This document shows positions 21,080 to 58,861 of a DNA stretch of 64,000 bases, piece by piece. The DNA lies in contig NZ_WBZB01000017.1 in the NCBI RefSeq assembly GCF_009017255.1, positions 1-64,000 on the forward strand. Reading direction: 5' to 3'. The first letter of the stretch is position 1. Every line of letters begins with the position of its first letter. The stretch comes from Alkaliphilus serpentinus (lineage in GTDB: Bacteria; Bacillota; Clostridia; Peptostreptococcales; Natronincolaceae). The notes beneath the pieces were generated by a model that was not told where the DNA came from, made no database searches, and saw only the letters and a list, made by a program, of their open reading frames with translations. A program made the position numbers and the translations under genes.

Positions 21080-21161
21080 CAAAAAAGGCAAACTTATCGA
21101 AAGGTAAGGACGCAAAGCCAAGGGCCTAAGATAATGATTTATTAAGGTAGCCGGTTGCTAA
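21080..21161 (+). promoter_or_regulatory. Class I cyclic di-GMP riboswitch (GEMM-I)
   Basis: The stretch contains the conserved GEMM-I core in order: GGCAAAC, a GNRA-capped hairpin (TTATCGAAAGGTAAG), GGACGCAAAGCC, GGGCCTAAG, a variable stem, and GGTAGCCGGTTGCT. This arrangement is distinctive. A probable TATAAT promoter lies at 21033-21038. A terminator hairpin follows, so the expression platform acts on transcription. It controls the adjacent diguanylate cyclase gene. Confidence 0.93.
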
Positions 21162-21172
21162 GTTATGTAACT

Positions 21173-39196: not shown

Positions 39197-40852
39197 ATGA
39201 AAAGGCAAAATGGAATAACCGTGGATGACATCATGAAATTAAAATGTATGGAAAATTGCAAAGTGATTGCTGGGGCCAATGGTCTTAATAATCCCGTTGC
39301 AAAGGTTAACATGACTGTGGATCCGGATATTCTAGCATGGCTAGATGCAGGAGAATTCTTATTAACAACTGCTTATTCCTTTAAGACTGAAGATATAGAG
39401 GTTCAAAAGAACCTTATAACCCATTGCGCCCAGAAAGGGGTGGCAGGCATAGGTATAAAGGTATATCCTTATGTAGAGGCTCTTCCTGAAGAAATAATCG
39501 AAACAGCCAACCAATTGAATTTTCCAATAGTTGATATATATCATGAGACTCCCTTGTCGGATATAACTTCCGACATCTTTAAGGAAATTTTTAATAAGCA
39601 GGCCTCCCTTCTTCAAAGGTTAGAGAAAATCCATGAGCAACTGATGCATGTTGTTCTTAGTGGAGGAGAGATTAAGGATGTAGTAAGGGTGGTTCATGAA
39701 AATCTGCAAAATCCAATACTGGTTAAGATAGAGCATCAAGAAGAAGTGACTATGGGGCTTAATGAGTATATCAAAGACACAAGTGCTTCCTTGTTAAGTA
39801 ATTATACCCGATTTTACGATAGTATGGAGAATAAGGTTAAGGAAAGGAAGTTCAATGAGACAATTGAGCTTATAAATGGTCAACGGGTAAGGCGTATGGT
39901 TATGCCAATCATTGTTAAAAACAATGTCTATGGACATATATTCTCTTGGGCCCTTAAAACTCCCTTGGGAGGCTTCGACCTATCGGTATTGGAGACTGCT
40001 TCAACAACTATTGCTTTAGAGGTATTAAAACAGCTTTCTATAAGAGATGTTGAAAATCGCCATAGGGCTGAATTTATGGAGGATCTTTTATCCTTAGATA
40101 TGAATCGAAAGGAAAAGGCCCTTGAAAAGGCAACTGTGTTTAAGTTGGGATACGATCAAAAATATGCAATGATCTTGATACAGCTGGAGAACATAGGAGA
40201 CACAATGATTGAAGATATTCTGCAAAAGGTTGCTCTAATCAATAATGATATAGATCGATTGTCGACTGAATTAAAGCTAAACTCCTTTATTGTTAGCAAA
40301 ACCGACGGTATCTATATAATGCTTTCCTTTAATAATGAAAAGAGCCCCTACAATATTATTCCTGAATTCTGCAATAAATTGGAAAAGCTATTGAGTTTAA
40401 GATTAAAAAAGGATGAATATAAAATTGGTATCGGTCGATTATATAATGGGTTATCAAAGGTTTACAAAAGCTATATTGATGCTTCCAAGGCTATAGTAAG
40501 TGGTGGCTTAATTGGTGAGGAGAATGTTGTTTATTTCGAAAAACTGGGAATCTACAAAATCCTATGCCAGGATGTTTTAAAGGAGGAGCTGGAAAAGTTC
40601 TATTCGGTAACCCTAGAGCCTTTAGTGGAGTATGATAGAAAGAAATCAACAGAGCTGGTTAAAACCTTAGAATCTTATTATTTTAACAATGGTAATCTTA
40701 AAAAGCTATCGGATGATTTATATACCCACTACAATACAACCCTGTACCGTCTTCAAAGGATTCAGGATATTACTGGAATGCAGTTGGATAATCATAAGGA
40801 TCGTTTGAATTTGGAAATTGCCTTAAAAATTAAAAGAATATTAAAAAAATAA
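39197..40852 (+). CDS. pucR: PucR family transcriptional regulator
   Basis: A 551-residue PucR/CdaR-type regulator. The N-terminal PucR domain (about 8-130; MKLKCMENCKVIAGANGLNNPVAKVNM and AWLDAGEFLLTTAYSF) is classic for purine-catabolism regulators. A central GGDEF-related domain (about 270-400) and the C-terminal HTH_30 domain (about 480-550; LESYYFNNGNLKKLSDDLY..NTTLYRLQRIQDITG) follow. In Bacillus subtilis PucR responds to purine intermediates such as allantoin. Here it stands directly before the purine/BMC cluster, so it is the best candidate for its activator or repressor. ATG 39197 follows AAGGAG by 9 bases. The true ligand is unknown. Confidence 0.88.
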   Translation: MKRQNGITVDDIMKLKCMENCKVIAGANGLNNPVAKVNMTVDPDILAWLDAGEFLLTTAYSFKTEDIEVQKNLITHCAQKGVAGIGIKVYPYVEALPEEIIETANQLNFPIVDIYHETPLSDITSDIFKEIFNKQASLLQRLEKIHEQLMHVVLSGGEIKDVVRVVHENLQNPILVKIEHQEEVTMGLNEYIKDTSASLLSNYTRFYDSMENKVKERKFNETIELINGQRVRRMVMPIIVKNNVYGHIFSWALKTPLGGFDLSVLETASTTIALEVLKQLSIRDVENRHRAEFMEDLLSLDMNRKEKALEKATVFKLGYDQKYAMILIQLENIGDTMIEDILQKVALINNDIDRLSTELKLNSFIVSKTDGIYIMLSFNNEKSPYNIIPEFCNKLEKLLSLRLKKDEYKIGIGRLYNGLSKVYKSYIDASKAIVSGGLIGEENVVYFEKLGIYKILCQDVLKEELEKFYSVTLEPLVEYDRKKSTELVKTLESYYFNNGNLKKLSDDLYTHYNTTLYRLQRIQDITGMQLDNHKDRLNLEIALKIKRILKK

Positions 40853-40882: not shown

Positions 40883-41575
40883 TTATTCTTCTAGTAAGGC
40901 AACTGCTCTTATGGGAGATCCAGAGCCTCCTCTAATTTTCAAAGGTAGACCAAAATATAAGAATCTCTTATTTACCAAAAGATGAAGATTTAAAAGATTT
41001 TCCGTGTTGGTTATGTCATATTCACCACATACTAAGTGACCGGAGAAGTTGATATCATCTGGATGATCAATGGCAGGTGCATCCACCCCGATATTAACCA
41101 CACCAGCTTCTGCTAACCATTTAGCTGCTGCATAGCTTAAACCGGTATAGGTGGTTTGCCATTTGTCAGTACCATAATGACGATCATGATGGCCGGTATA
41201 CATAAGTAAAATATCGCCCTTTTCTATTTTTAAACCAGACTTGGCAACGGCTTGCTCTAAATCTTTGGGTTCAATATAGCGAGTAGGGGGTATGTGGGAG
41301 AGATCGATGCAAATTGCGCTTCCCCAGAAATACTCCAAAGGCATATTTTCAATAGTAGCACCAGAGGGCTTATATTCCCAAACAGCATCGCAATGGGTGC
41401 CACCATGCTCGCTTATAAGCAAATTTCTAGCTGAAAAGCCTAAAGCCTTACTACCAGTTGTCTGCATATTCTCCTCGTGGGTCATATTGGTCATAATAAA
41501 GGTAGGTTGATGCATGGGGAATACAGACATTCCTTGAAAAATTTCCTGTGATAAATCGATTAGCTTTAATGGCAT
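40883..41575 (-). CDS. Cyclase-family metal-dependent hydrolase
   Basis: A 230-residue protein of the cyclase family (Pfam cyclase; kynurenine formamidase and isatin hydrolase relatives), metal-dependent hydrolases of amides and lactams. The metal-binding motif is plain: SEHGGTHCDAVWEY (HxxxHxD-type, about residues 54-68), with a later DAPAIDHP and GDILLMYTGHHDRHYG. It is divergent from the chemoreceptor, lies between the PucR gene and the BMC locus, and converges with pucR. Isatin hydrolase opens a lactam ring, which makes opening of 4-imidazolone to formiminoglycine a reasonable but untested role here. It has no signal peptide. Confidence 0.85.
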   Translation of the reverse strand: MPLKLIDLSQEIFQGMSVFPMHQPTFIMTNMTHEENMQTTGSKALGFSARNLLISEHGGTHCDAVWEYKPSGATIENMPLEYFWGSAICIDLSHIPPTRYIEPKDLEQAVAKSGLKIEKGDILLMYTGHHDRHYGTDKWQTTYTGLSYAAAKWLAEAGVVNIGVDAPAIDHPDDINFSGHLVCGEYDITNTENLLNLHLLVNKRFLYFGLPLKIRGGSGSPIRAVALLEE

Positions 41576-43606: not shown

Positions 43607-44512
43607 ATGAAAGAAAAACAATATGTATTAGCTGTGCCAAACTTCAGTGACGGAAGAAGAAAAGAGGTTATAGAAGCTGTGGTTGAGCCCTTTAGAAATG
43701 CTGAGGGAGTTACTCTAGTTAGCTATGAACCAGAGCATGATTTCAACAGAACAGTAGTTACCGTGATCGGTGAGCCAGAGCCTTTAAAAGAAGCATTGCT
43801 ACAAATGGCAGGCAAGTGCTATGAATTAATCAACATGGAGGAGCAAGAAGGAAGTCATCCGAGGATTGGTGCCCATGATACAATTCCGCTATTCCCCTTC
43901 AAAAACATCACCCTTGAAGAGTGTACTGCCTTGGCTGAAGAAATTGGAAAAGAAGTTTATGCAAGATACCAAGTTCCAGTATATTTCTCAGGACAAAATG
44001 CTCGAAATGAAGATAGAAAGGCTTTATCTTTCATTAGAAAGGGTCAATATGAAGGGTTAAAAAAGGTAGCCCATACCGATGAAAGAAAACCGGATATAGG
44101 ACCAGCTGCCCTTCACCCAACAGCAGGTGCAACTATTGTTAGTGCAGATAGTGAAGGTTTAACAGCTTATAATGTTTTCTTAGCCACAGAAGATTTAAAT
44201 ATTGCTAAAGCCATTGCTAAAGGAGTTAGAGGACCAAGTGGTGGATTCTCAACAATCAGAGCAGTGGGAATCAAGTTCCCAGAGAGATCTGGTGTGGTTG
44301 TATCAATGAATATGTTTGACTGTGGAGCAACTCCTTTATATAGAGCCTTTAATTTTGTGAAACAAGAAGCAGCAAGATATGGGGTTATTGTAACAGGGTC
44401 AGAAATTGTTGGGCCAATAAAACTGGACTATGTCTTGAATTCTTTTGAATATTACTTAGGCTTAGAGAACTTCAGAAAAGATCAAATTCTTGAAACACAC
44501 CTAATGAAATAA
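43607..44512 (+). CDS. ftcD: Glutamate formimidoyltransferase-type enzyme (formiminoglycine transferase candidate)
   Basis: A 301-residue monofunctional formiminotransferase that moves a formimino group to tetrahydrofolate. The catalytic histidine lies in EGSHPRIGAHDTIPLFP (His84, matching the known His82 of the pig enzyme). The N-terminal PNFSDGRRKEVIEAVV and PNFS-type folate region are conserved. The usual substrate is formiminoglutamate from histidine breakdown, but no other hut gene is here. Its place at the head of the BMC cluster suggests formiminoglycine, the last intermediate of xanthine fermentation, is the donor. AAGGAGG precedes ATG 43607. The cyclodeaminase half found in eukaryotic FTCD is absent, as is usual in bacteria. 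Confidence 0.9.
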   Translation: MKEKQYVLAVPNFSDGRRKEVIEAVVEPFRNAEGVTLVSYEPEHDFNRTVVTVIGEPEPLKEALLQMAGKCYELINMEEQEGSHPRIGAHDTIPLFPFKNITLEECTALAEEIGKEVYARYQVPVYFSGQNARNEDRKALSFIRKGQYEGLKKVAHTDERKPDIGPAALHPTAGATIVSADSEGLTAYNVFLATEDLNIAKAIAKGVRGPSGGFSTIRAVGIKFPERSGVVVSMNMFDCGATPLYRAFNFVKQEAARYGVIVTGSEIVGPIKLDYVLNSFEYYLGLENFRKDQILETHLMK

Positions 44513-44572: not shown

Positions 44573-45988
44573 ATGAAGTATGATGTTGTTTTAAAAAATG
44601 CTAGAATTCCTCAGGGAAATGAAACTGTAGTAACACATATTCTGGTAAAGGATGAAAAAATCGCAGGTTTTGTTACTGACTTAGAAGGTATAGAATATGG
44701 AAGAGAAATCGATGCAGAGGGACATTTAACCCTTCCAGGCTGCTTTGACTCTCATACCCACTTTATGGATCCTGGCTTTACCCATAGAGAAACCTTCTTA
44801 ACAGGATCATCCTCTGCTGCAGCTGGTGGATTAACCATGATTATGGATATGCCCTGCTGCTCAAAGCCTTCAGTAAGAGGTGTAGAAGAGCTAGAGCACA
44901 AGCTGAATGCCATTAAGGATCAAGCGGTTATTGACTATGCTATGTGGGGTGGAGTAACTGGCGAAGACATTAGAGCTGGTAAGAAGCAAATTGTAAAAGA
45001 ACAAGCTGATTACGGTGTATGCGCCTTTAAAGTTTATATGACTCCTTCAGTACCTACCTATGAAAGGGTAACGGATCCTGAAATGCTTGAAGCCTTTAGA
45101 TGGGTTGCAGAAACTGGAGTTCCAGTAGGAATCCATGCTGAAAACTTTGCGATGTGCGATTATTTTGTGAAGAAGTTCCAAAAGGAAGGTAGAACCGATG
45201 GTCCAGCTTGGGCAGAAGCAAGATGCGTAGAAGCTGAGCAGGCAGCCATTGAACTAGGAATTAACTTTGCTGAATCTACTGGTGCAAGACTTCACATTGT
45301 TCATATGAGTGCAGGAGTTGGTGCAAGATTGATAGGAGCTGCTAAAAAGAGGGGATTAAGTGTTACATCAGAAACCTGCCCTCACTATTTAATGCTTAAC
45401 TATCAAGATGCAATGACCGAGCATAGACAATTTGCAAAAATCGCACCACCTTTAAGAACTAAGAAGGATAATGAAGAGCTTTGGGAAGGGTTAAGGAATG
45501 GAAGCGTAGACTTCATGGCTACAGACCACGCTCCATATGAAATTGCAACTGAGAAGGAAGGTCCAGGAATGGATATATGGTCAGCCTTCCCAGGTATCCC
45601 AGGTGTTGAAACTTTAGTTCCGATAGTAGTTAGTGAAGGGTATAACAAGGGAAGATTATCCTTAAGCAGACTTGTTGAAGTGCTTAGTACAGCACCTGCA
45701 AGACAATATGGTTTATATCCTAAAAAGGGTGCCACTATGATCGGTTCTGATGCAGATTTCACCATCATTGATTTAGAAAAAGAATGGACCATCGATCAAA
45801 AGGAAACCTATTCTATGGCTAAATACAATCCATTGCACGGAATTAAGCTAAAGGGTAAGCCAGTTAAAACGATTGTACGTGGAACCTTAGTATATGACGA
45901 TAAGGAAGGTATTGTTGTTGAGCCAGGTTTTGGTCAATTTGTAAGACGTCAAAGAATAGAAAAGCTTGAAAGAACAATAACATACTAA
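44573..45988 (+). CDS. Dihydroorotase/hydantoinase/allantoinase-family cyclic amidohydrolase
   Basis: A 471-residue binuclear metal amidohydrolase. The metal ligands are DSHTHF (His61, His63), a probable carboxylated Lys153 (CAFKVYM), GIHAEN, HIVHMS and ATDHAP (Asp318). This is the full set for cyclic-amide hydrolases such as allantoinase, hydantoinase and dihydroorotase. Pyrimidine genes are absent, and the gene sits between formimidoyltransferase and an isochorismatase-family amidase inside a purine cluster. The simplest reading is that it opens the pyrimidine ring of xanthine to 4-ureido-5-imidazolecarboxylate ('xanthine amidohydrolase'). That assignment is inference; allantoin is the main alternative, though no uricase is nearby. 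Confidence 0.85.
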   Translation: MKYDVVLKNARIPQGNETVVTHILVKDEKIAGFVTDLEGIEYGREIDAEGHLTLPGCFDSHTHFMDPGFTHRETFLTGSSSAAAGGLTMIMDMPCCSKPSVRGVEELEHKLNAIKDQAVIDYAMWGGVTGEDIRAGKKQIVKEQADYGVCAFKVYMTPSVPTYERVTDPEMLEAFRWVAETGVPVGIHAENFAMCDYFVKKFQKEGRTDGPAWAEARCVEAEQAAIELGINFAESTGARLHIVHMSAGVGARLIGAAKKRGLSVTSETCPHYLMLNYQDAMTEHRQFAKIAPPLRTKKDNEELWEGLRNGSVDFMATDHAPYEIATEKEGPGMDIWSAFPGIPGVETLVPIVVSEGYNKGRLSLSRLVEVLSTAPARQYGLYPKKGATMIGSDADFTIIDLEKEWTIDQKETYSMAKYNPLHGIKLKGKPVKTIVRGTLVYDDKEGIVVEPGFGQFVRRQRIEKLERTITY

Positions 45989-46019
45989 TTAGAGAACTAT
46001 GAAAAATGGAGGAAAGAAA

Positions 46020-46622
46020 ATGCCAAGACACGCGATATTAGTAATAGACATGTTAAACGACTTTGTAGGAGTTAAGGCTCCATTAAGATGCCCAGGTGGA
46101 GAAGAAATCGTTGCTGATCTACAAAAGCTATTTAAATGGGTAAGAAGCAGAAATAACGACGATGTTCAATTAGTTCATATTCAAGAAGCCCATAGAAAAA
46201 ATGATGCAGACTTTAGAGTAAGACCCGTTCATGCTGTTAAGGGTTCTTGGGGTTCAGACTTCATCCCTGAGCTATATCCAGAGGGTGAAGAATATATTGT
46301 ACAAAAAAGAAGACATAGTGCCTTTGCCCACACTGACTTAGATTTATTCTTACGTGAAGAAGCAATTGATACAGTAGTTGTTACGGGTGTTTGGACAAAT
46401 GTATGCGTAAGAAGCTCTGCTACCGATGCTTTAGCAAATGCATACAAGGTAATCACCTTAAGTGATGCCTGCGCTTCTAAAACGGAAGAGATGCATTTAA
46501 ATGGATTAAAGGACCTAAGTATATTCACCAAGATTATGACAGTTGATGAATATATTCAAGCTTGGGAAAAAGGTGAAGATCCATGGCTTGGCGGCGGAGA
46601 CGCTGAAAATAAAGTAGAATAG
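46020..46622 (+). CDS. Isochorismatase/N-carbamoyl amidase-family hydrolase
   Basis: A 200-residue cysteine hydrolase of the isochorismatase superfamily with its full catalytic triad, Asp10 (LVIDML), Lys96 (VQKRRHSAF) and Cys129 (TNVCVRSS). The group includes N-carbamoylsarcosine amidase, ureidoacrylate amidase and nicotinamidase, which cleave amide or ureido groups. It follows the cyclic amidohydrolase by 31 bp, so removal of the ureido group of 4-ureido-5-imidazolecarboxylate is a natural proposal. ATG 46020 has GGAGG 7 to 8 bases upstream. The C-terminal tail is acidic (about 25 residues); whether it serves targeting is unknown. Confidence 0.88.
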   Translation: MPRHAILVIDMLNDFVGVKAPLRCPGGEEIVADLQKLFKWVRSRNNDDVQLVHIQEAHRKNDADFRVRPVHAVKGSWGSDFIPELYPEGEEYIVQKRRHSAFAHTDLDLFLREEAIDTVVVTGVWTNVCVRSSATDALANAYKVITLSDACASKTEEMHLNGLKDLSIFTKIMTVDEYIQAWEKGEDPWLGGGDAENKVE

Positions 46623-46664: not shown

Positions 46665-46700
46665 AATGATAGTATGCCAACACTAGAAAGTGGTGAGGAG

Positions 46701-47258
46701 ATGCGGATAGTTGTAGGAATATCTGGAGGAAGCTGTGGGATTTATGGTGTGGGACTCTTAAAGGTTTTACAGGAGCTTAATATAGAAACCCATCTTGTAG
46801 TTTCTACAATGGGGGAATATGTTGTTAAGCACGAATGTGGTATGGACTTAGATGAGCTAAAAGGCCTTGCAACCCATTATCACAATAATAAAGACCTTGC
46901 TGCACCAATATCCAGTGGATCCTTTAAAACCAACGGAATGATTATTATACCCTCCTCAATGAGAACCTTAGCAGCAGTAGCAAATGGTATTTCTGATAAT
47001 CTACTGACAAGGGCAGCCGATGTAACGATAAAAGAGAGTAGAAGGCTTGTAATCGTCCCTCGGGAGACACCATTAAGCGTAATTCATTTAGAAAACATGC
47101 TAAAGCTCGCTAAGATGGGGGTTAGGATAATGCCAGCAGCACCAGGCTTTTACCATCAACCAGAAACCATTGAAGAGATTGTAAGCATTATAGTTGGACG
47201 AGCCCTAGACCAACTGGATATAGAGCATAATTTACTAAAAAGATGGGGCGGAGTTTAA
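46701..47258 (+). CDS. ubiX: UbiX-type flavin prenyltransferase
   Basis: A 185-residue UbiX/Pad1 family protein, which makes the prenylated flavin (prFMN) needed by UbiD decarboxylases. Signatures are the N-terminal MRIVVGISGGSCGIYG (a variant of the usual GxTGASG), IIIPSSMRTLAAVANGISDNLLTRAADVTIKE, RRLVIVPRETPLS and the C-terminal GFYHQPETIEEIV. The start ATG 46701 is chosen because the family normally begins here; an ATG at 46674 is in frame but has no ribosome binding site. It is separated from the UbiD gene by 173 bp filled with repeats. It should supply prFMN to that enzyme, which is the only UbiD in view. Confidence 0.9.
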   Translation: MRIVVGISGGSCGIYGVGLLKVLQELNIETHLVVSTMGEYVVKHECGMDLDELKGLATHYHNNKDLAAPISSGSFKTNGMIIIPSSMRTLAAVANGISDNLLTRAADVTIKESRRLVIVPRETPLSVIHLENMLKLAKMGVRIMPAAPGFYHQPETIEEIVSIIVGRALDQLDIEHNLLKRWGGV

Positions 47259-47431: not shown

Positions 47432-48787
47432 ATGGAAAGACAAATGCTGAGGGCTGCTTTAGATAAGTTAAAAAGAAAGGGCGTACTTCTAGAATGTAAT
47501 AAGGAAGTAGACCCAAAGTTTGAGCTAGGAGCAGTCTTAAAACACTTTAGTAACGAGGTACCAATCCTATTCAAAAAGGTTAAAGGTAGTAAAATACCGG
47601 TTGTTGGGGCTATGTTTGGTGAAAGAAAAATCTATTATGATATGCTGGGAATCACCCATGAGGAAAGAATCTTTAAAATGATGGATGCTATAGCCAATCC
47701 AAAGCCAACAAAGCTATTGACAAAGGGCCCAGTAATGGAGAACATCATTACAAAAAATATCGATTTGCCTAAAATGTTTCCGATTCCAACCTTCCATGAA
47801 GAAGATTCTTCAAGCTACATAACAGCTGGCCTTGTAGTGATAAAGGATCCAGAAACCGGTCAAAGACATGTGTCTGTTAGAAGGCTTCAGATTAATGGCG
47901 GAAATGAAATGAGCGTACTGGTGGCATCGCCCCTTGCAAACAAGCAATATTTAGAGATGGAAAAGTTAAACAAACCACTGGAGATTGCTGTCGTTTTAGG
48001 GTATGATTATAGTATATTGTTAGCGTCTCAAATAAGCAGTGAAACCTATGGTGTAGATAAATATGAAGTGGATAGCGCCCTGCGGGGAGAACCATTGGAG
48101 CTTGTTAAGTGTCATAGCATAGATTTAGAGGTTCCAGCCCACGCAGAAATTGTATTTGAAGGTATTATGCCTCCCCATCGACGAGTTACTGAAGGCCCCT
48201 TTGGGGAGTTAATGGGATACTACGGCAATGTTGGTCCCCATCCAGTTATGGAGGTTAAAGCCATCATGCACCGTAACAACCCAATCTTTCAAACTGCCTT
48301 CCCTTCAAGGGAGGAGCATTTATCTAATGGGCTAATTAGAGAAATAGAGTTATACTCTGCTTTAAAGACCATGGTGGATGTAAAGGATGTCAATGTAACT
48401 GTATCTGGAGGCTGTAGATTCCATGCCTTTGCAGCTATAAACAAGCGAAATGCTGGAGATGGTAAAAGTGCCATTATAGCCGCACTAGCCAGCAGTAAGG
48501 ATGTAAAGCACGTAGTAATCGTAGATAACGATGTAGATATATTTAGTCATGATGATATGGAATGGGCAATAGCATCAAGAGTGCAGGCATCAAGAGATTT
48601 AGTGGTTATACCTGGCGCCTTAGGGTCAGGACTGGAACCATCCCATGGATTGAATGGCGTAACCGACAAAATCGGTATAGATGCTACTAAACCACTAGGT
48701 GACGCTGGTAAAAAATTTGAAAGAGCAAAAATTCCTGGATTTGAAAAAATCGATATTGAAAAATATCTTCCAGGAATCAAATTATAG
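47432..48787 (+). CDS. ubiD: UbiD-family prFMN-dependent decarboxylase (aminoimidazolecarboxylate decarboxylase candidate)
   Basis: A 451-residue UbiD-type decarboxylase. The N-terminal helix (RAALDKLKRKGVLLE), VSVRRLQING (candidate catalytic Arg150/151) and EGPFGELMGYYG with Glu254 and Glu259 correspond to the Arg-Glu-Glu set of the family; GALGSGLEPS near the C-terminus is also typical. UbiD proteins remove CO2 from aromatic or unsaturated acids using prFMN made by UbiX. In this cluster, 4-amino-5-imidazolecarboxylate is a chemically suitable substrate, because the classical xanthine pathway has exactly that decarboxylation. AAAGGAGG precedes ATG 47432. The gene lies immediately before the first shell gene. 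The substrate is an inference. Confidence 0.88.
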   Translation: MERQMLRAALDKLKRKGVLLECNKEVDPKFELGAVLKHFSNEVPILFKKVKGSKIPVVGAMFGERKIYYDMLGITHEERIFKMMDAIANPKPTKLLTKGPVMENIITKNIDLPKMFPIPTFHEEDSSSYITAGLVVIKDPETGQRHVSVRRLQINGGNEMSVLVASPLANKQYLEMEKLNKPLEIAVVLGYDYSILLASQISSETYGVDKYEVDSALRGEPLELVKCHSIDLEVPAHAEIVFEGIMPPHRRVTEGPFGELMGYYGNVGPHPVMEVKAIMHRNNPIFQTAFPSREEHLSNGLIREIELYSALKTMVDVKDVNVTVSGGCRFHAFAAINKRNAGDGKSAIIAALASSKDVKHVVIVDNDVDIFSHDDMEWAIASRVQASRDLVVIPGALGSGLEPSHGLNGVTDKIGIDATKPLGDAGKKFERAKIPGFEKIDIEKYLPGIKL

Positions 48788-48805: not shown

Positions 48806-49072
48806 ATGAAGCAAGCCTTAGGTTTTGTTGAAACTCGAAGTCTTGTTGCAGCAATTGAAGCAGCTGATGCCATGGTTAAGTCTGCAAATGTAAGAATCGT
48901 TGAATTTAACTATGTAGGATCAGGTGTAGTGGCAGTAGTTGTAGCAGGAGAGGTTGCTGCAGTGCAAGCAGCTGTAGCAAGTGGAGCTGAATCAGCAGCT
49001 CAAGTATCAGAGGTTATTTCCACTAACGTAATTGCAAGACCCCACGATGAGGTGGACAAGCTTTTAGATTAA
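48806..49072 (+). CDS. BMC-H shell protein 1
   Basis: An 88-residue bacterial microcompartment hexamer protein (single BMC domain, Pfam BMC). The start [28 protein letters not shown], the central GEVAAVQAAVASGAESA and the end NVIARPHDEVDKLL all match the family. The pore-loop position reads YVGSGVV, that is the common GSG pore. Hexamers tile the facets and let small molecules through. It is first of three BMC-H genes here, 18 bp after the UbiD gene. ATG 48806 follows AGGGTGG. Confidence 0.96.
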   Translation: MKQALGFVETRSLVAAIEAADAMVKSANVRIVEFNYVGSGVVAVVVAGEVAAVQAAVASGAESAAQVSEVISTNVIARPHDEVDKLLD

Positions 49073-49099
49073 AGTAAATTTTAGATGGTGGTGATAGGT

Positions 49100-49486
49100 T
49101 TGGCAAATCCATTGACAAGGGTCATAATGAATAATATTGCTGGAAAATCCATTCCCAATCATAAAGGTACCAGCAATGAAATAACTACCAGCTTAAAGGA
49201 TCATGAAGAGCAATTGTTAAAGGGCATCATTAACAAAAATAAAAGAGTTGATAATATTAGGGATAAGAGCTATTCCACCAATAGACCACAACAGGTACAT
49301 TTAACTTCTCTTACAGAGCTTGCTTCTAAATCCAGCAAGAATCCAGAGATGCTAGAAGATCCAGGGAAGGAAGGATTTACTCCTCCGGTTAAAAATGACG
49401 TCATGGTGAAAAAGCACGTAATTGCAGGGAATCACGTAGACCTGCTATCCCTTGGCTCCATGGCAAAAAAAGGTTCTATAAAGTAA
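49100..49486 (+). CDS. Unknown protein between shell genes, 128 residues
   Basis: I do not recognise this family. The 128-residue product is rich in Lys, Asn, Ser and Pro, with few hydrophobic blocks, and seems largely disordered apart from short helical ends (NPLTRVIMNNIAGK and HVDLLSLGSMAKKG). It has no BMC domain, membrane helix, Cys or catalytic motif. It is flanked by two BMC-H genes (27 bp before the second) and belongs to the shell set, which suggests a scaffold, linker or cargo adaptor. TTG 49100 is chosen because GGTGGTG lies 7-8 bases upstream; ATG 49085 is an alternative that would add five residues. Confidence 0.65.
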   Translation: MANPLTRVIMNNIAGKSIPNHKGTSNEITTSLKDHEEQLLKGIINKNKRVDNIRDKSYSTNRPQQVHLTSLTELASKSSKNPEMLEDPGKEGFTPPVKNDVMVKKHVIAGNHVDLLSLGSMAKKGSIK

Positions 49487-49511: not shown

Positions 49512-49889
49512 ATGAAGGCAGCATTAGGATTAATAGAAGCCATTGGTCTAACATCAGCCGTAGCAGCTTTGGACGCAGCCAGTAAGGCCGCCGATGTTAA
49601 GCTTGTAGGTTATGAAAAGGTAATAGGGGTTGATAAGGTTGTAAGTGTTACAATTCAGATTGCAGGTGAGGTAGCAGCCGTTAAGGCCGGTGTTGAGGCT
49701 GGTGTAGCTGCAGCCAATAAAATAGGCAGAATTGTATCAAGCCATGTAATTCCAAGACCCCATGAAGAGGTTGAGATGCTTATTAAAATCTTTGAGCAAA
49801 ACTTAAAGGATAAAAAGGCTCCAGCATCAAACCCAGAGGTGGCAGAAAAACCCCAGGGTAAAACTAAAAAACAAGAAGCCAATAAATAA
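49512..49889 (+). CDS. BMC-H shell protein 2 with C-terminal extension
   Basis: A 125-residue BMC-domain protein. Its core (about 1-92; [34 protein letters not shown] and [15 protein letters not shown]) is the hexamer type. The pore-loop region reads [11 protein letters not shown] in place of the usual GSG, with extra residues, so the pore is probably of different size and charge. A C-terminal tail of about 30 residues, rich in Lys, Pro and Ala ([20 protein letters not shown]), may lie on the shell face or bind cargo. AGGAGG precedes ATG 49512. Confidence 0.93.
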
Positions 49890-49927: not shown

Positions 49928-50203
49928 ATGAGTCAAGCATTAGGTTTGGTAGAAACTAAAGGTTTAGTAGGAGCAGTTGAGGCAGCAGATGCAATGGTAA
50001 AAGCTGCAAATGTTACAATCGTTGGATACGAAAAAATCGGTTTTGGTTTGGTAACTGTAATGGTAAGAGGAGATGTTGGAGCAGTAAAGGCAGCAACAGA
50101 CGCTGGAGCAGAAGCAGCTAGAGCAGTAGGAGAGCTTTATTCTGTACATGTAATCCCAAGACCACACTCAGAAGTAGAAAGAGTTCTATTAAAGGGTGAA
50201 TAA
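49928..50203 (+). CDS. BMC-H shell protein 3
   Basis: A 91-residue canonical BMC hexamer protein ([63 protein letters not shown]). The pore loop reads KIGFGLV, with Phe where Ser is usual, which would narrow the pore and make it hydrophobic. AGGAGG precedes ATG 49928. It is probably the major facet protein because it is closest to the family consensus. It is followed within 50 bp by the flavoprotein-like gene. Confidence 0.96.
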
Positions 50204-50249: not shown

Positions 50250-51038
50250 ATGAGTCGATATAATCAGACCCAAAGAATCATAGAGCACCTAATACTAAGA
50301 AGCAATAGTTCCATAAGTAATCAGGGAGGCACCAAGCATTTGATGGTTGCATTAACTGGTACCAATATCAGCAGAGATCAGGTTTTTAATGATTTATCTT
50401 CCTTAAGCAAGGAAGGCTTTACCTATGATATTGTTCTTTCGGATAGCGGAGAAGAAATCAATGATATCAGTGAAATTCGCCGTTACTTAAATCCAAAGGA
50501 ACTCTATACAGAAAAGCTTCCCCTAGCTAGAGAAGGATATCTGGAGGGTATTGATGGCTTTCTAGTGCCTTTAATAACTCAAAACACTGCTATTAAGCTA
50601 TCCCTTGGTATACAGGATCAGTTGGTGCCTAGAATGCTATGGCAGGCTCTATGGCAGGATAAGCCTGTATGGATGAACTTCAAAGATCTATTACAATATA
50701 AAGGTCTAGCAACCAATAACCCCCATTTAATTGAAAAGCTGAAGGGAACAATTGCTGAATTAAAGAAGATGGGTGTTAGAGCCTACGAATTTCCTTTTAA
50801 TATGGGGGAAGTCAAAAAGGTATTAAACTTTAATAAGAATAATACGGGGGACATGAAAGGATCAAACAATCCTAAGGTTGAGTTTAAAGGCAATGAAGAA
50901 CGCAGGGTAATAACAGAGAGTGACATCTTGACTTCTAAGCCTTCCAATGGTGAAATAATGATTCCAGCAGGAGCTATTATTACACCCCTAGCTAAGGATA
51001 CAGCAAAGGCACTGGGGCTTAAAATAGTTAGAAAGTAA
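50250..51038 (+). CDS. BMC-associated flavoprotein-like protein
   Basis: A 262-residue protein that appears to have a flavoprotein-type fold (about 28-185; MVALTGTNISRDQVFNDL, GFLVPLITQNTAIKLSLG, LWQALWQDKPVWM) and a short C-terminal segment (about 215-262; RRVITESDILTSKP, IMIPAGAIITPLAKDTAKALG). The second, 'ITPLAxDxAKxxG', is a phrase I know from several BMC-locus proteins. Flavoprotein-like genes recur in BMC operons, where their role is unclear. No conserved active-site residues could be assigned. ATG 50250 follows GAGGGGG. It lies between the third hexamer gene and the vertex gene, so it is a shell-set protein. Confidence 0.6.
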   Translation: MSRYNQTQRIIEHLILRSNSSISNQGGTKHLMVALTGTNISRDQVFNDLSSLSKEGFTYDIVLSDSGEEINDISEIRRYLNPKELYTEKLPLAREGYLEGIDGFLVPLITQNTAIKLSLGIQDQLVPRMLWQALWQDKPVWMNFKDLLQYKGLATNNPHLIEKLKGTIAELKKMGVRAYEFPFNMGEVKKVLNFNKNNTGDMKGSNNPKVEFKGNEERRVITESDILTSKPSNGEIMIPAGAIITPLAKDTAKALGLKIVRK

Positions 51039-51062: not shown

Positions 51063-51347
51063 ATGCATATTGGCAGAGTCATTGGAACGATAGTGGCTAC
51101 GAGAAAGGATGAAAGGCTTGTAGGGAGTAAGCTAATGCTTACCCAGCCTTTAAATATTGATGAAGTGCCTGTAGGTGATCCACTAATTGCAGTAGATACC
51201 GTTGGGGCTGGAATCGGAGAATTAGTTATTTATGCTAAGGGTACAGCCGCTAGACATGCTGCAGAAAAGCTTCAATCCCCAATCGACGCAGCTATTGTAG
51301 GAATTATAGACAATATAGATGTTTATCGTGATTTAATTAAAAAATAA
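51063..51347 (+). CDS. BMC-P vertex protein (EutN/CcmL family)
   Basis: A 94-residue EutN/CcmL-type pentamer that caps the vertices of microcompartments. The N-terminal MHIGRVIGTIVATRKDERLVGSKL, the central DEVPVGDPLIAVDTVGAGIGELV and GTAARHAA, and C-terminal DAAIVGIIDNIDVY are diagnostic. A single BMC-P and three BMC-H genes are enough for a closed shell. GGAGAGGG precedes ATG 51063. It stands 20 bp before the divergent adenine-deaminase paralogue. Confidence 0.95.
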   Translation: MHIGRVIGTIVATRKDERLVGSKLMLTQPLNIDEVPVGDPLIAVDTVGAGIGELVIYAKGTAARHAAEKLQSPIDAAIVGIIDNIDVYRDLIKK

Positions 51348-51367: not shown

Positions 51368-53182
51368 TTGTTAGACGTTAAATGTATAAAAACAGCTATG
51401 GAGTATAGAGAGCTGATAGATATACTAATGTCAGATAAGCACTTTGCTGATGTAGTATTATATCAAGGAAACGTTGTTAATGTACTAACTAGAGAAATCT
51501 ATAGAGCAGATATCGCCTTTAAAGGAAAATATATTCTAATGGTTGGAGATGCAGAAAAGCTTATTGGACCGGATACGATTGTTGTAGATGTTCAAGGTAA
51601 GTATCTATCTCCTGGTTTTATCGACTCCCATATGCACTTCGAAAGTAGTATGTTAACGATTACAGAGTTCTCGAGGCTATCCATACCCTCAGGAACAACA
51701 ACCCTTGTGGCGGATCCCCATGAAATTGGGAATGCCTTAGGACCAATAGGAATCAAAGCCATGGCTGAAGAAGCCAGTGTTGTTCCAAACCATGTACATT
51801 TGGTGGTGCCAGCCCTAACTCCAGATTCCCCGGATTTAGAGACAGCAGGCTATGACATTACCTCCAAGGATATGAAGGAAATTTTAGGCTATCCAAATGT
51901 TATTGGTATAGGAGAGCTACAGGGCTTTAGTAATGCCAAGCACGTTTATAGAAATACACCTGAAGTAATTACAGATTTATTAGCCTCCACCATATATGCT
52001 AGAAGTATTGGTAAAATGGTGGATGGAAATGCTCCTGAGCTTTTTGGGAATGAACTGGCAGCCCATATTATCTCCACAGCGGGTGAGTGCTCATGTCATG
52101 AGACCACTACAAAGGCAGAGTGTGTAGAAAAGCTACGTCAAGGCGTATATGTATTTATGCGGGAAGGATCCACCCAAAGGAATATGGCAGAATGTATTAG
52201 AGCCGTTACTGAAGAGGGTTTTGATTCAAGACGATGCATTTTAGCAACTGATGATATGGTGGCAGAGGATTTAGAAAAGCTAGGCCACATGAATGAAATT
52301 GTTAAGAGAACCATCAATGAAGGTGTTAATCCAGTCGAAGCTATTCAAATGGTAACCATAAATCCTGCAACATACTTTGGATTAAAAGACAGGGGAATAT
52401 TGGCTCCAGGTAAGCTGGCTGATGTAGCCATCATAAGTGACATTAATAATATGGTAGTAGATGCTGTTTTCCTTGAAGGAAAGCTTGTGGCATCTCAGGG
52501 TAAGCTACTAATTGATCTGCCTACCTATACCTATCCAGATGAGGTTAAGCATTCTGTAAAGCGTAACCCAGTTACTGAAGAGGAGTTAAAGATTCCTGCC
52601 AATGGTAGCGAAGCAACAGTAAGATGTATTGGGTTAATTCCAGATCAAAACCTTTCAGATGATCATGAGGTGAGAGTAAAGGTTCAGCAAGGAGCAGTTC
52701 AAGCTGATGTAAGACAGGATGCCCTTTATATTGTTTGTGTTGAAAGGTATGGCAGAAACGGCAGTATCGGAAAGGCTTTAGTTAAGGGCTTTGGTTTAGA
52801 GCAAGGAGCCTTTGCAGAAAGTGTTGCCCACGATACCCATAATATTATGGCCGTTGGCACCAATCTAAAGGATATGGCAGCTGCGATAAACCATGTTATT
52901 GAAATGGGTGGCGGTTTAGCAGTAGCCAAAGGTGGAAGAGTGATTGATGATTTAAGACTTCCAGTTGGTGGCTTAATAACCGATGAGCTAACCGGACCAG
53001 AGGTAAGCTTAAAGATTGCTTCCATTGAAAAAACCGTTAAAGATCAATTAGGTGGTAAGGTTCATGCGCCATTTATGCATTTATCCTTCTTAGCTTTATC
53101 AACAAGTCCTAAGTGGAAAATTACCGATCAAGGCTTAATTGATGTTAACAACTTTGAAATTCTACCTCCTGTTGTAGAATAG
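51368..53182 (+). CDS. Divergent adenine-deaminase paralogue (aminoimidazole deaminase candidate)
   Basis: A 604-residue AdeC-type amidohydrolase with the metal-binding DSHMHFESS (about residues 91-99) and VADPHEIGN, and an adenine-deaminase C-terminal domain. Compared with the canonical adenine deaminase at 59842, residues around the active site differ: CSCHETT instead of TEHECST, ATDDMVAEDL instead of CTDDKHPDDI, and GHMNE instead of GHIDN. It also has an extra N-terminal segment of about 18 residues (VKCIKTAMEYRELIDILM) that could form an amphipathic helix, the usual form of a BMC encapsulation peptide. It lies directly after the vertex gene. Deamination of 4-aminoimidazole to 4-imidazolone is my suggested reaction. 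TTG 51368 follows GGAGGGG. Confidence 0.8.
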   Translation: MLDVKCIKTAMEYRELIDILMSDKHFADVVLYQGNVVNVLTREIYRADIAFKGKYILMVGDAEKLIGPDTIVVDVQGKYLSPGFIDSHMHFESSMLTITEFSRLSIPSGTTTLVADPHEIGNALGPIGIKAMAEEASVVPNHVHLVVPALTPDSPDLETAGYDITSKDMKEILGYPNVIGIGELQGFSNAKHVYRNTPEVITDLLASTIYARSIGKMVDGNAPELFGNELAAHIISTAGECSCHETTTKAECVEKLRQGVYVFMREGSTQRNMAECIRAVTEEGFDSRRCILATDDMVAEDLEKLGHMNEIVKRTINEGVNPVEAIQMVTINPATYFGLKDRGILAPGKLADVAIISDINNMVVDAVFLEGKLVASQGKLLIDLPTYTYPDEVKHSVKRNPVTEEELKIPANGSEATVRCIGLIPDQNLSDDHEVRVKVQQGAVQADVRQDALYIVCVERYGRNGSIGKALVKGFGLEQGAFAESVAHDTHNIMAVGTNLKDMAAAINHVIEMGGGLAVAKGGRVIDDLRLPVGGLITDELTGPEVSLKIASIEKTVKDQLGGKVHAPFMHLSFLALSTSPKWKITDQGLIDVNNFEILPPVVE

Positions 53183-53293: not shown

Positions 53294-54613
53294 GTGAGTT
53301 TAAGAACCGAAAGTAGTTTCTTAGAAAGAAGGTTTAAGTTAAGTGAACACAAAACCAATGTAAAAACAGAAATCCTTGCTGGTATTACAACTTTCATGAC
53401 AATGGCGTATATCTTAATTGTAAACCCATTGATTCTGTCTGATGCAGGAATGGATTTTGGTGCAGTTTTCACTGCTACTGCACTTTCATCAATTGTCGCA
53501 ATTTTAGTAATGGCTTTTTATGCTAATTATCCCTTTGCTTTAGCACCTGGTATGGGATTAAATGCATTTTTTGCCTACACAGTTGTTCTGCAAATGGGTT
53601 ATTCTTGGGAATTTGCCCTTACAGCAGTTTTAATTGAAGGTATAATTTTTATACTAATGTCTTTTGTTAATGTAAGGGAAGCAATTATTAACTCTATTCC
53701 AATCAATCTTAAGCATGCAGTATCCGTTGGAATTGGATTATTTATTGCATTCATAGGATTAACTGGTGCTGGAGTAGTTAAAACAGGAAATGGAACCATT
53801 GTTGCCTTAGGAGACTTAACAGCAGCAGCTCCTTTACTAGCCCTTTTAGGTATTGTTATTACAGGATTCCTATTGGCTAAAAAGGTAAAGGGTGCTCTTC
53901 TATTCGGTATCCTTGCTACTACCATCATAGGTATACCAATGGGAGTAACCCAATGGCCAGGTTGGAATCTTATAAGTGCTCCTCCTTCATTATCACCAAT
54001 ATTCTTCAAATTTGATTTTGCCAATATATTCACCTTTGATATGCTAGTTGTTGTATTTACCTTCTTATTTGTAGATGTGTTTGACACAGTTGGTACATTA
54101 ATAGGTGTATCATCAAAGGCAAATATGCTAGATAAAGAAGGTAAACTTCCAAGGGCAAAGCAAGCTTTATTTGCTGATGCTATAGGAACAACAGTAGGTG
54201 CTTGTTTAGGAACCAGTACAGTTACAACCTATGTTGAAAGTGCTTCTGGAGTTGCAGAAGGTGGAAGAACTGGTTTAACAGCCCTTTCAACTGGAGCCAT
54301 GTTTGCAATAGCTCTATTCCTTTCACCGCTATTCATCATGATCCCTTCAGCAGCAACTGCACCAGCATTGGTATTAGTAGGTCTATTCATGATGTCACCT
54401 ATCAAGAATATAGATCTTGATGATTTTACAGAAGCCATTCCAGCCTTCCTAACAATCATCATGATGCCTTTAGGCTACAGTATTGCTGATGGTATAGTAT
54501 TTGGTATCGTTTCATATGTATTATTAAAGCTTTTCACTGGTAAAGGTGGTAAAGTATCTCCAATACTATATATATTAGCTGTGCTATTTGTCTTAAAATT
54601 CCTTGTTCACTAA
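53294..54613 (+). CDS. AzgA/PbuG-type purine (NCS2) permease
   Basis: A 439-residue membrane transporter of the NCS2 family, in the hypoxanthine/guanine/adenine subgroup (AzgA, PbuG). Signatures: ETEILAGITTFMTMAYILIVNP, FALAPGMGLNAFFAYTV, VGIGLFIAFIGLTGAGVV, FLFVDVFDTVGTLIGVSSKANMLD and GTSTVTTYVESASGVAEGGRTGL. About twelve to fourteen helices. GTG 53294 follows GAGGGGG. It presumably imports purines for the cluster. The 110-bp gap before it has a GGGGGACAG REP-type word and no purine riboswitch core, so control by the usual PurR/xpt-type riboswitch is not supported. Confidence 0.93.
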   Translation: MSLRTESSFLERRFKLSEHKTNVKTEILAGITTFMTMAYILIVNPLILSDAGMDFGAVFTATALSSIVAILVMAFYANYPFALAPGMGLNAFFAYTVVLQMGYSWEFALTAVLIEGIIFILMSFVNVREAIINSIPINLKHAVSVGIGLFIAFIGLTGAGVVKTGNGTIVALGDLTAAAPLLALLGIVITGFLLAKKVKGALLFGILATTIIGIPMGVTQWPGWNLISAPPSLSPIFFKFDFANIFTFDMLVVVFTFLFVDVFDTVGTLIGVSSKANMLDKEGKLPRAKQALFADAIGTTVGACLGTSTVTTYVESASGVAEGGRTGLTALSTGAMFAIALFLSPLFIMIPSAATAPALVLVGLFMMSPIKNIDLDDFTEAIPAFLTIIMMPLGYSIADGIVFGIVSYVLLKLFTGKGGKVSPILYILAVLFVLKFLVH

Positions 54614-54799: not shown

Positions 54800-56137
54800 A
54801 TGAATAAAATATTAATTAAAAATGCACTTATAGTTACTATGAATAATAGGAGGGATATATTCAAAGGCGACATCTTAATTGAGGGAGATAGAATTAAGGA
54901 AATGTCCCCTAAGTTAGAGATGGAGGCCGATACGGTTATAGATGCCACCGGCAAAACGGTTATACCTGGTATGATACAAACCCATATTCACTTAACCCAA
55001 ACCCTTTACAGAGGTCAAGCAGATGATCTAGAGCTTTTAGACTGGTTAAAACAGAGGGTATGGCCATTGGAGGGATCCCATACAGCAGAGTCTAATTATG
55101 TTTCTGCAAAGTTAGGAATTGCTGAGCTTATTAAGGGAGGAACAACCTCTATAATTGATATGGGGACAGTAAACCACTCTGATTCAATTTTTGAAGCCAT
55201 TGAAGAAAGTGGGTTTAGAGCAATATCTGGTAAGTGTATGATGGACTACGGAATTGGTGTTCCAGACACCCTAATGGAGGATACCAATGAATCTATCAAG
55301 GAAAGTGAAAGGCTGCTGAAAAAGTGGCATGGTAAGGCAAACAACAGAATCCAATATGCTTTTGCACCAAGGTTTGTGGTATCTTGTACCGAAGAGCTTT
55401 TAGTGAAGGTAAGGGATTTGAGTAAGGAATATGGTGTGATGGTTCATACCCATGCTTCTGAAAATAGAGGAGAAATTGAATTGGTTCAAAGGGATAGAGG
55501 CATGAGAAATGTACTATATCTCGACAAACTGGGAATGACTGGTGATCAGCTGATTCTTGCCCATTGTATCTGGTTGGATGACGAGGAAATGAAGATTTTA
55601 GCAGCAACTGGTACGAAGATTTCCCACTGTCCAAACTCTAATTTAAAGCTTGCATCAGGGATTGCAAAAATACCAGAGTTATTGGAGATGAATGCTTCTG
55701 TATCAATTGCAGCCGATGGAGCTCCTTGCAATAATAACCTTGACATCTTTAAGGAGATGAGAAGTGCAGCCCTGATTCAAAAAGCAAGATTATTAAGCCC
55801 AACTGTAATGCCAGCCCATAAGGTATTTGAGTTAGCAACCATCGGTGGAGCTCAAGCAATGGGAATGGAAAAGGAACTTGGAAGTCTAGAAGTAGGTAAA
55901 AAGGCAGATATAGTTATTCTAGATTTAAATAAAATCCACTGCAGTCCTTCCGATGAGGTGGATGTTGTATCGAGAATTGTTTATTCAGCTGATGCCTGTG
56001 ATGTTGACACTACAATAATTGACGGAAAAATTGTAATGAAAAATCGGGAGCTTTTAACCTTGTCGGAGAAGGAAATTATGGAGGACTCCAACAGACTGGT
56101 AAAACAGCAAATTCAATTGGCCAATGTAAAAAAATAA
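54800..56137 (+). CDS. Amidohydrolase of the guanine deaminase/SsnA/MtaD group
   Basis: A 445-residue mononuclear metal amidohydrolase of the group containing guanine deaminase, SsnA, methylthioadenosine/S-adenosylhomocysteine deaminase and 5'-deoxyadenosine deaminase. Metal ligands: MIQTHIHLTQT (two His), VHTHASEN, LAHCIWLDD, and the aspartate in SIAADGAPCNNN. In a purine-degradation cluster guanine-to-xanthine deamination is the natural role, but the NNNLDIFKEMR segment is also seen in nucleoside-type members, so a deaminase for guanine or a related purine is as far as I go. AGGAGG precedes ATG 54800. Next are the purine hydroxylase subunits. Confidence 0.85.
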   Translation: MNKILIKNALIVTMNNRRDIFKGDILIEGDRIKEMSPKLEMEADTVIDATGKTVIPGMIQTHIHLTQTLYRGQADDLELLDWLKQRVWPLEGSHTAESNYVSAKLGIAELIKGGTTSIIDMGTVNHSDSIFEAIEESGFRAISGKCMMDYGIGVPDTLMEDTNESIKESERLLKKWHGKANNRIQYAFAPRFVVSCTEELLVKVRDLSKEYGVMVHTHASENRGEIELVQRDRGMRNVLYLDKLGMTGDQLILAHCIWLDDEEMKILAATGTKISHCPNSNLKLASGIAKIPELLEMNASVSIAADGAPCNNNLDIFKEMRSAALIQKARLLSPTVMPAHKVFELATIGGAQAMGMEKELGSLEVGKKADIVILDLNKIHCSPSDEVDVVSRIVYSADACDVDTTIIDGKIVMKNRELLTLSEKEIMEDSNRLVKQQIQLANVKK

Positions 56138-56193: not shown

Positions 56194-57114
56194 ATGGATA
56201 TAAAAAACGTATTCCAAGCAAAAGATGTACCTGAGGCTATTAACTTATTAGATCAATACGGGGAAGCTGCAAAGGTTATTGCTGGAGGTACAGACATTAT
56301 AATTGCTTTAAGAGAAAATCACGTTAAGGTATCGGTTTTAGTTGACATATCATCCATTAAAGAGCTAAAGGAAATAAAGACTTCAGATGATTGGGTTGAA
56401 ATGGGGGCGGCTGTTACCTTTACAGAGGTGATGGATTATTTTAAGGGTCATAAGGAATACTCAGGTTTAATTGAAGCTGCTTCATTAGTAGGATCACCCC
56501 AAATAAGAAATGCAGCTACTATTGGCGGGAATATATGTAACGCCTCACCAGCGGCCGACTTTGTACCACCTTTACTGGCTTTAGACGCAGTTCTTACAGT
56601 AGAAGGTAAAGAAGGTAAAAGAGAAGTTCGATTAGAGGATTTCCTTTTAGACAAGGGTAGGGTAGATTTAAACAAAGGAGAGCTTCTTACTACCATTAAA
56701 TTTATAAGGCTTCGGAAGGGTCAAACTGTGACCTTTAGTAAGCTAGGCTTAAGAAAGGCTCTAGCCATATCAAGACTTTCTACAGCGGTTTATTTGGAAA
56801 TAGATGATGACGAAAAGTGTGCAGAGGTGAGAGTTGCCAGTGGGTCCATCGGAAAGCATGGCCTTAGAGAAAGGGTTGCAGAAGAATCCCTAAAGGGAAA
56901 GAATTTAGATAAAGCTGCTATAGATGAAGCCTCAAAGGTTTTAAGTAACGAAGTAGAAAAAAGACTTGCTGGCCGTTCCAGCTGTGAGTTTAAAAAGGAC
57001 GCAGTAGAGGGAATATTCCTGAAGGCAGTAGAAAAGGCAATGGTGCACAACGGGGACGGTTCTTATTGTGCAATGGGCACTCAATATTATCCCAGAGCAG
57101 CGGGAAAGGAATGA
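56194..57114 (+). CDS. xdhB: Purine hydroxylase FAD-binding subunit
   Basis: A 306-residue FAD-binding subunit of a molybdenum hydroxylase (xanthine dehydrogenase/CoxM family). AGGTDIIIALRE (FAD pyrophosphate loop), GSPQIRNAATIGGNICNASPAAD and RKALAISRLSTAVYLEI mark the domain. The last about 20 residues are abnormal: a REP-type repeat (57044-57072) reads in frame as VHNGDGSYCAM-type sequence near residues 284-293, replacing or extending the normal end. GAGGAGTGA precedes ATG 56194. Its partner genes follow immediately. The enzyme would oxidise hypoxanthine (or another purine) to xanthine and pass electrons through FAD. Confidence 0.92.
   Translation: MDIKNVFQAKDVPEAINLLDQYGEAAKVIAGGTDIIIALRENHVKVSVLVDISSIKELKEIKTSDDWVEMGAAVTFTEVMDYFKGHKEYSGLIEAASLVGSPQIRNAATIGGNICNASPAADFVPPLLALDAVLTVEGKEGKREVRLEDFLLDKGRVDLNKGELLTTIKFIRLRKGQTVTFSKLGLRKALAISRLSTAVYLEIDDDEKCAEVRVASGSIGKHGLRERVAEESLKGKNLDKAAIDEASKVLSNEVEKRLAGRSSCEFKKDAVEGIFLKAVEKAMVHNGDGSYCAMGTQYYPRAAGKE
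57044..57074. repeat. REP-like repeat copy B inside xdhB
   Basis: This copy has inverted ends TGCACAA (57044-57050) and TTGTGCA (57066-57072) around a GGGGACGGTT core and matches the intergenic copy at 47262-47291 in 29 of 30 bases. It is read in frame as the C-terminal part of the FAD subunit. Confidence 0.8.
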
Positions 57115-57121
57115 TAATAAA

Positions 57122-57598
57122 ATGAAAACCATAAATGTAAAGATCAACGGTGAAAATTACACCCGTGAAATTAACGAAGATATGAGATTACTGGATTTTA
57201 TTAGAGATGAGCTAAAGCTCTATGGTACAAAAGAAGGCTGTGGTGAAGGTGAATGTGGTGCCTGCACTGTGATAATGGATGGAGTAACAGTGAACTCTTG
57301 TATGGTGATGGCCTTTCAAGCTAATAACAAGGAAATATTAACAATAGAAGGTATGGAGGATGAAAAGGGTCTTCATCCTATTCAACAAGCTTTTTTAGAT
57401 GAAGGAGCAGTTCAATGTGGTTTTTGCATACCAGGGATGGTACTGTCAGCTAAAGCCCTCTTAGACAAAAATCCAAAGCCTTCACGAAAGGAAATTAAAG
57501 AAGGTATATCTGGAAACCTATGCAGATGTACAGGTTATAACAAAATCGTGGATAGTATCGAAAAGGCTTCCCAATATTTAGAGGGGGAGGATCAATAA
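57122..57598 (+). CDS. xdhC: Purine hydroxylase [2Fe-2S] subunit
   Basis: A 158-residue iron-sulfur subunit of a molybdenum hydroxylase. It has the plant-type ferredoxin cluster (GCGEGECGACTVIMDGVTVNSC) in the first half and the helical second cluster (CGFCIPGMVLSAKALL, NLCRCTGYNKIV) in the second. It carries electrons between Mo and FAD. I choose ATG 57122 because the family starts with MKTINVKINGE; a longer frame from 57068 overlaps the FAD gene. It overlaps the following gene by one base (ATGA-type junction). The symbol follows the common naming and may differ between species. Confidence 0.93.
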   Translation: MKTINVKINGENYTREINEDMRLLDFIRDELKLYGTKEGCGEGECGACTVIMDGVTVNSCMVMAFQANNKEILTIEGMEDEKGLHPIQQAFLDEGAVQCGFCIPGMVLSAKALLDKNPKPSRKEIKEGISGNLCRCTGYNKIVDSIEKASQYLEGEDQ

Positions 57599-58860: not shown

Positions 58861-58861
58861 T

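Follow-up and report, generated by a model that had tools for sequence, protein, structure and literature searches.

A predicted anaerobic xanthine-degradation cluster with shell-protein genes in Alkaliphilus serpentinus

Known xanthine pathways and the cluster in the window

In 2012, no gene was assignable in C. acidurici (PMC3519856). Ravcheev et al. 2019 later predicted a xanthine compartment, with gene names Xau (PMC6620236), and the compartment is called BUF1 (PMC8156839). Recently, a xanthinase pathway cluster was identified in Clostridia and Bacilli, with a kcat of 0.1 per s for xanthinase (PMC12507026, citing Tong et al. 2023). The gap thus persisted until recently but has since been closed. 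The first-pass annotation of this DNA had presented the two genes at 44573-46622 as candidates for the "long-sought" steps that open xanthine and remove the ureido group. As a prediction of function, this is well supported by genomic context, clade-specific residues and chemistry; "long-sought," however, is outdated, since PMC12507026 credits the identification of the cluster to Tong et al. 2023.

The window, by which we mean the whole stretch of 64,000 nucleotides analyzed here, holds a complete anaerobic xanthine-degradation cluster, with every enzyme class needed by the pathway. Its genes are as follows, with step numbers referring to the proposed pathway described below.

39197-40852, + strand: PucR-family transcriptional regulator, likely purine-responsive (PF07905, PF13556)
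40883-41575, - strand: cyclase-family hydrolase, proposed 4-imidazolone hydrolase, step 5 (PF04199, 2e-36)
43607-44512, + strand: formiminotransferase (FTCD), proposed formiminoglycine formiminotransferase, step 6 (TIGR02024, 311.6 bits, cut-off 221.25)
44573-45988, + strand: amidohydrolase of 471 aa, proposed xanthine amidohydrolase, step 1 (PF01979)
46020-46622, + strand: isochorismatase-family hydrolase of 200 aa, proposed 4-ureido-5-imidazolecarboxylate amidohydrolase, step 2 (PF00857, 6.5e-43)
46674-47258, + strand: UbiX-type flavin prenyltransferase, prenyl-FMN for UbiD (NF004685, 246.6 bits, cut-off 188)
47432-48787, + strand: UbiD-family decarboxylase, proposed 4-amino-5-imidazolecarboxylate decarboxylase, step 3 (TIGR00148, 320 bits, cut-off 244.85; PF01977)
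48806-49072, + strand: BMC-H shell protein 1 (PF00936, 83.8 bits at 48815-49042)
49085-49486, + strand: disordered multi-motif protein, candidate cargo/shell adaptor, with counterparts at the equivalent position in most Xau loci
49512-49889, + strand: BMC-H shell protein 2 (PF00936, 1.9e-22)
49928-50203, + strand: BMC-H shell protein 3 (PF00936, 8.8e-30)
50250-51038, + strand: TIGR02536-like microcompartment accessory protein (31.5 bits, under the TIGR02536 cut-off of 152.6)
51063-51347, + strand: BMC-P (EutN/CcmL) vertex protein (PF03319, 4.7e-32)
51368-53182, + strand: adenine-deaminase-like enzyme, proposed 4-aminoimidazole deaminase, step 4 (PF13382, PF01979)
53294-54613, + strand: xanthine/uracil-type permease (PF00860, 1.7e-48)
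54800-56137, + strand: 5'-deoxyadenosine/guanine-deaminase-like amidohydrolase (NF005557, 719.9 bits, cut-off 522)
56194-59836, + strand: xanthine dehydrogenase (PF00941, PF01799, PF02738, PF20256), made up of
56194-57114, + strand: FAD subunit
57068-57598, + strand: 2Fe-2S subunit
57598-58860 and 58841-59836, + strand: Mo subunit in two genes, the second probably starting from ATG 58862

Shell genes are thus clustered with Xau enzymes, the permease and xanthine dehydrogenase, as in a Xau (BUF1) locus. The described locus, Amet_4568-4587, has the same enzyme classes, apparently in the same order, together with shell proteins, permease and xanthine dehydrogenase (PMC6620236). In the xanthinase pathway, too, xanthine is opened by hydrolysis, and further hydrolytic and decarboxylative steps lead on to glycine (PMC12507026). 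The pair in the window is a further case of a pathway and a compartment that are already known.

At the downstream end, the two halves of the Mo subunit are overlapping genes in different frames (57598-59836). We considered a frameshift artefact and rejected it, since the same short second frame occurs in 13 of 20 genomes of the family, that of A. serpentinus included; the other matches there are frames of 750-914 aa, and in 2 of the 13 genomes a stop lies within the match. A second adenine-deaminase-like gene (59842-61566) directly follows the xanthine dehydrogenase genes.

Assignment of the pathway steps

The pair very probably encodes a predicted xanthine amidohydrolase followed by a predicted 4-ureido-5-imidazolecarboxylate amidohydrolase, which would carry out the two hydrolyses that begin the anaerobic breakdown of xanthine. 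The intermediates are those of the clostridial literature, and each substrate is assigned here by prediction. In step 1, the amidohydrolase would hydrolyze the imide bond between N1 and C6 of xanthine, giving 4-ureido-5-imidazolecarboxylate. The cysteine hydrolase, with C129 as nucleophile, would then take off the ureido group as ammonia and CO2, leaving 4-amino-5-imidazolecarboxylate (step 2), which UbiD, using prenyl-FMN made by UbiX, would decarboxylate to 4-aminoimidazole (step 3). The adenine-deaminase-like enzyme is expected to turn this into 4-imidazolone (step 4), and the cyclase-family enzyme to open 4-imidazolone to formiminoglycine (step 5). Finally, the formiminotransferase would move the formimino group to tetrahydrofolate and leave glycine (step 6). 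Some of these steps probably take place inside a protein-shelled microcompartment. The cluster of Tong et al. 2023 (Cell Chem Biol 30:1104) reportedly comprises four hydrolases of different families and a prenyl-FMN decarboxylase, an enzyme set that matches the genes of the window in enzyme class. If the assignments are right, the pair would let anaerobes take xanthine to glycine without uric acid as an intermediate. Such enzymes have already been placed in an engineered probiotic (PMC11688493).

Which of the two ring-opening hydrolases acts on xanthine? Ravcheev et al. 2019 give xanthine opening, their second step, to Amet_4587 and imidazolone opening, their sixth, to Amet_4584 (PMC6620236). 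From the order of the genes, we infer that Amet_4587 is the cyclase-family enzyme and Amet_4584 the hydantoinase-like one. On this reading of their account, the two roles are opposite to those favored here: the cyclase-family enzyme would open xanthine and the hydantoinase-like enzyme 4-imidazolone. The presence of both genes in almost all loci fits such a swap as well, but we consider it improbable on two grounds, namely the gene pairings in two rearranged loci and the chemistry of the two families. In Brenneria sp. 4F2 (locus L073) and in a Rhodospirillales metagenome-assembled genome (MAG; L074), the hydantoinase-like amidohydrolase stays with the isochorismatase-family gene, whereas the cyclase-family gene adjoins the adenine-deaminase-like gene, as expected if steps 1-2 and steps 4-5 are grouped. 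Hydantoinase-type enzymes cut cyclic imides, such as the N1-C6 bond of xanthine; isatin hydrolase, a member of the cyclase family, acts by opening a five-membered lactam. These rearrangements and the imide chemistry lead us to favor the amidohydrolase for the xanthine step, which gives backing to one of two competing step assignments.

L073 and L074, both labeled proteobacterial, have no formiminotransferase in the stretch examined, and no FTCD_N match was found in the L074 genome. Both clusters carry a DUF1989 gene, and that of L073 also carries an M20-family amidase gene (coordinates of these genes: 9647-10258 and 5624-6898 in L073, 9044-9655 in L074). DUF1989 may handle formiminoglycine in loci of this type. 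Among 385 genomes of the class to which this FTCD-less proteobacterial type belongs, the amidohydrolase was found in the starting genome only.

The nearest solved structures to the cyclase-family hydrolase are kynurenine formamidases, with isatin hydrolases lower down. The usual cyclase-family motif is HxGTHxDxPxH; in each of the 45 aligned rows that extend as far as its last His, Glu stands there instead. This Glu is possibly a mark of a predicted imidazolone hydrolase clade.

Linkage and conserved residues of the pair

To what extent do the two genes travel together? We compared 81 loci, which reduce to 56 distinct genes, the window's own included, because several genomes had been entered more than once. 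Loci were taken from the matches at order level (30, including the window), with some further ones added; two matches of 39 and 25 residues (L081, L082) and a paralogue in the same genome (L039/L098) were dropped before counting. At order level, the amidohydrolase has matches in 45 of 393 genomes (E 1e-100), and at class level in 13 of 391 (E 1e-120). In the named collection, matches come from Alkaliphilus, Anaerovirgula, Natronincola, Anoxynatronum, Thermotalea, Tissierella, Schnuerera, Acidaminobacter and Andreesenia, among others. The Alkaliphilus pronyensis protein is 92% identical to the amidohydrolase, and a MAG labeled Andreesenia angusta (L077) has both members of the pair, at 62% and 72% identity. 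Andreesenia angusta ferments uric acid, xanthine and guanine (PMC5256209).

The isochorismatase-family gene neighbors that of the amidohydrolase in every distinct locus (56 of 56). It is always downstream, on the same strand and within 1200 bases, with gaps of 15 to 580 bases between aligned ends across the 81 loci. As a control, only 1 of 30 dihydropyrimidinase loci from the same order (stretches of 3.0-4.4 kb each) has any isochorismatase homologue, at 26% identity. The metal ligands of the first enzyme and the triad of the second are identical in every alignable row (80 or 81) of the 81 loci, so that the pair and its residues go beyond chance. The remaining pathway genes are also frequent in the distinct loci of more than 12 kb: out of 35, UbiX, BMC-P and the adenine-deaminase-like gene are each found in 34, the cyclase-family gene and UbiD each in 33, the permease in 30 and the formiminotransferase in 24. 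We take some of the absences to be ends of a contig or stretch.

For the isochorismatase-family gene, the 31 bp between the amidohydrolase stop (45988) and ATG 46020, as well as the triad Asp10, Lys96 and Cys129 counted from that ATG, are as the first-pass annotation had them. A GGAGG at 46008 precedes ATG 46020; an in-frame upstream ATG at 45999 would give 207 aa and has no GGAGG-type site just upstream. PF00857 scores 147.3 bits against a cut-off of 27, and D10, K96 and C129 are kept in 81 of 81 rows. The family is broad, and structure matches include nicotinamidase and biuret, ureidoacrylate and N-carbamoylsarcosine hydrolases. Could the enzyme then act on some other carbamoyl or amide compound, with the ureido step done elsewhere? 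We consider this very unlikely: no other PF00857 gene was found in the genome as a whole, the gene follows the amidohydrolase in every distinct locus, and its two best NCBIfam matches, biuret amidohydrolase and RutB, act on ureido-type substrates, though both score far under their cut-offs. The predicted role in removing the ureido group also bears on PDB 3hb7, which matches the protein over its full length (E 1.4e-114) with the same triad in the alignment and is labeled in its file just "Isochorismatase hydrolase," with function unassigned. The match suggests that this orphan structure is a candidate ureidoimidazolecarboxylate hydrolase and so gives it a putative function. Among 72,556 plasmid records, the isochorismatase-family protein had no match at E 1e-30.

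The amidohydrolase has the binuclear site that had been claimed for it, with His61, His63, Lys153 and Asp318 at the positions given; H188 and H244 are the remaining two metal ligands expected for the fold. In the aligned rows of the 81 loci, one of which is partial, H61, H63, K153 and H188 are invariant in 80 of 80, and H244 and D318 in 81 of 81. The four-His/Lys/Asp binuclear site of cyclic amidohydrolases is thus present, with carboxylation of the Lys itself as a prediction. An AlphaFold2 model (pLDDT 85, pTM 0.88; low-confidence loops at 68-70 and 158-161) has the metal-dependent TIM-barrel hydrolase fold. Its best PDB match is L-hydantoinase 1gkr (Z 52.1, rmsd 1.8 over 448 residues), and allantoinases are also among the best matches, such as 3e74 from E. 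coli (Z 51.5). The protein shares fold and six metal ligands with both, at 36% identity to 1gkr and 30-32% to E. coli allantoinase (3e74, 8hfd).

The top curated library matches are allantoinase, hydantoinase and dihydropyrimidinase models, all below cut-off: the allantoinase models TIGR03178 and NF004839 score 342.6 (cut-off 357.85) and 368.1 bits (cut-off 631), and the dihydropyrimidinase/D-hydantoinase model TIGR02033 scores 317.1 (cut-off 393.25). The broad dihydroorotase-like model TIGR00857 scores 306.2, above its cut-off of 279.05, which indicates superfamily membership and nothing more. In a maximum-likelihood tree of 18 of the 35 aligned clade rows, 29 dihydropyrimidinases and E. coli HyuA and AllB, the amidohydrolase clade is set apart by a branch with 100/100 support. 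The placement of AllB, a long branch, is unsure, and L123 was left out because its extracted frame failed the length filter. Dihydropyrimidinase contacts its substrate through Tyr155 and Asn337, and the amidohydrolase lacks both. At position 158, all 18 clade rows have Pro, whereas the 30 dihydropyrimidinase and HyuA rows all have Tyr; none of the 35 aligned clade rows has the "PNG" Asn. Loss of the Tyr is by itself no pointer to xanthine, since E. coli allantoinase also lacks it and has Thr instead. Other residues are invariant in the clade and rare or absent in the controls, e.g., R72, C95, C96, W125, W213 and W336, and many clade-invariant residues differ in E. coli AllB. Thus, although fold, metal site and top library matches are those of hydantoinases and allantoinases, the least likely reading of all, with a very small chance indeed, is that an ordinary dihydropyrimidinase, hydantoinase or allantoinase is located here by chance, given the scores under the curated cut-offs, the separate clade without the Tyr and Asn, and the linkage to the xanthine cluster.

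The paralogue in the A. serpentinus genome (contig C31:76035-77444, minus strand; L039 9476-10948) is 69% identical to the amidohydrolase, keeps the metal ligands and is nested in the Xau clade beside the L064 gene. Its single neighborhood contains no isochorismatase-family gene (0 of 1) and no other Xau gene, so that belonging to the clade does not by itself point to the pathway. The clade also varies in length: the amidohydrolases of L065, L067-L070, L077 and L080 have an insertion of about 60 residues directly before the conserved C-terminal tail, whereas those of L066, L071-L075 and L078 have a C-terminal extension of about 24 residues instead. These could possibly be encapsulation or tethering segments.

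A candidate adaptor, and other features of the window

The ORF at 49085-49486, between the first two shell genes, has no match in Pfam or NCBIfam. Among 36 loci having UbiD and BMC2, a pattern search picked out 31 (30 of them distinct) with a counterpart in the position following BMC-H1. Five loci escaped the pattern: a comparable short ORF is present in L042, L054 and L068 and a different one, of 281 aa, in L074; L079 yielded none. The counterparts are only 19-50% identical to the window's protein, yet their motifs keep the same order. These are an "ANPLxxxIMxNI" helix at the N terminus, an "LxxxEExLLxxII" helix and "LDELA"-type motifs, separated by disordered linkers. The "LxxxEExLLxxII" second helix is visible in the alignment, and a "SLxSIGK" tail occurs in 5 of 32 members, with the window counted as the 32nd. 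AlphaFold2, run on an alignment of 25 members, gives isolated helices at 9-22, 39-51 and 76-84 (mean pLDDT 67, pTM 0.21). Isolated helices with a low pTM are what would be expected of a chain of short motifs joined by disordered segments.

PMC8217296 describes encapsulation peptides as short, amphipathic helices that are attached by flexible linkers. We tentatively propose, at somewhat less than an even chance, that the disordered protein represents a previously undescribed adaptor family that assembles the xanthine compartment and would tether the pair and the other enzymes to one another or to the shell; binding to cargo or shell is what we infer. The carboxysome linkers CsoS2 and CcmN follow a like logic, without evident homology. 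The available sections of the Xau account make no mention of the protein (PMC6620236), and a search by title found no paper on such a protein in Xau/BUF1 loci, which is weak evidence of novelty. As a candidate adaptor of the Xau compartment, it is directly testable.

Elsewhere in the window, the one match of an Rfam search for purine or xanthine riboswitches is a c-di-GMP-I riboswitch (21077-21162), which lies at a distance from the cluster and directly upstream of a gene for a GGDEF-domain protein (21227-22636). Between this gene and the cluster, at 28690-34524, is a very long ORF of 1944 aa.
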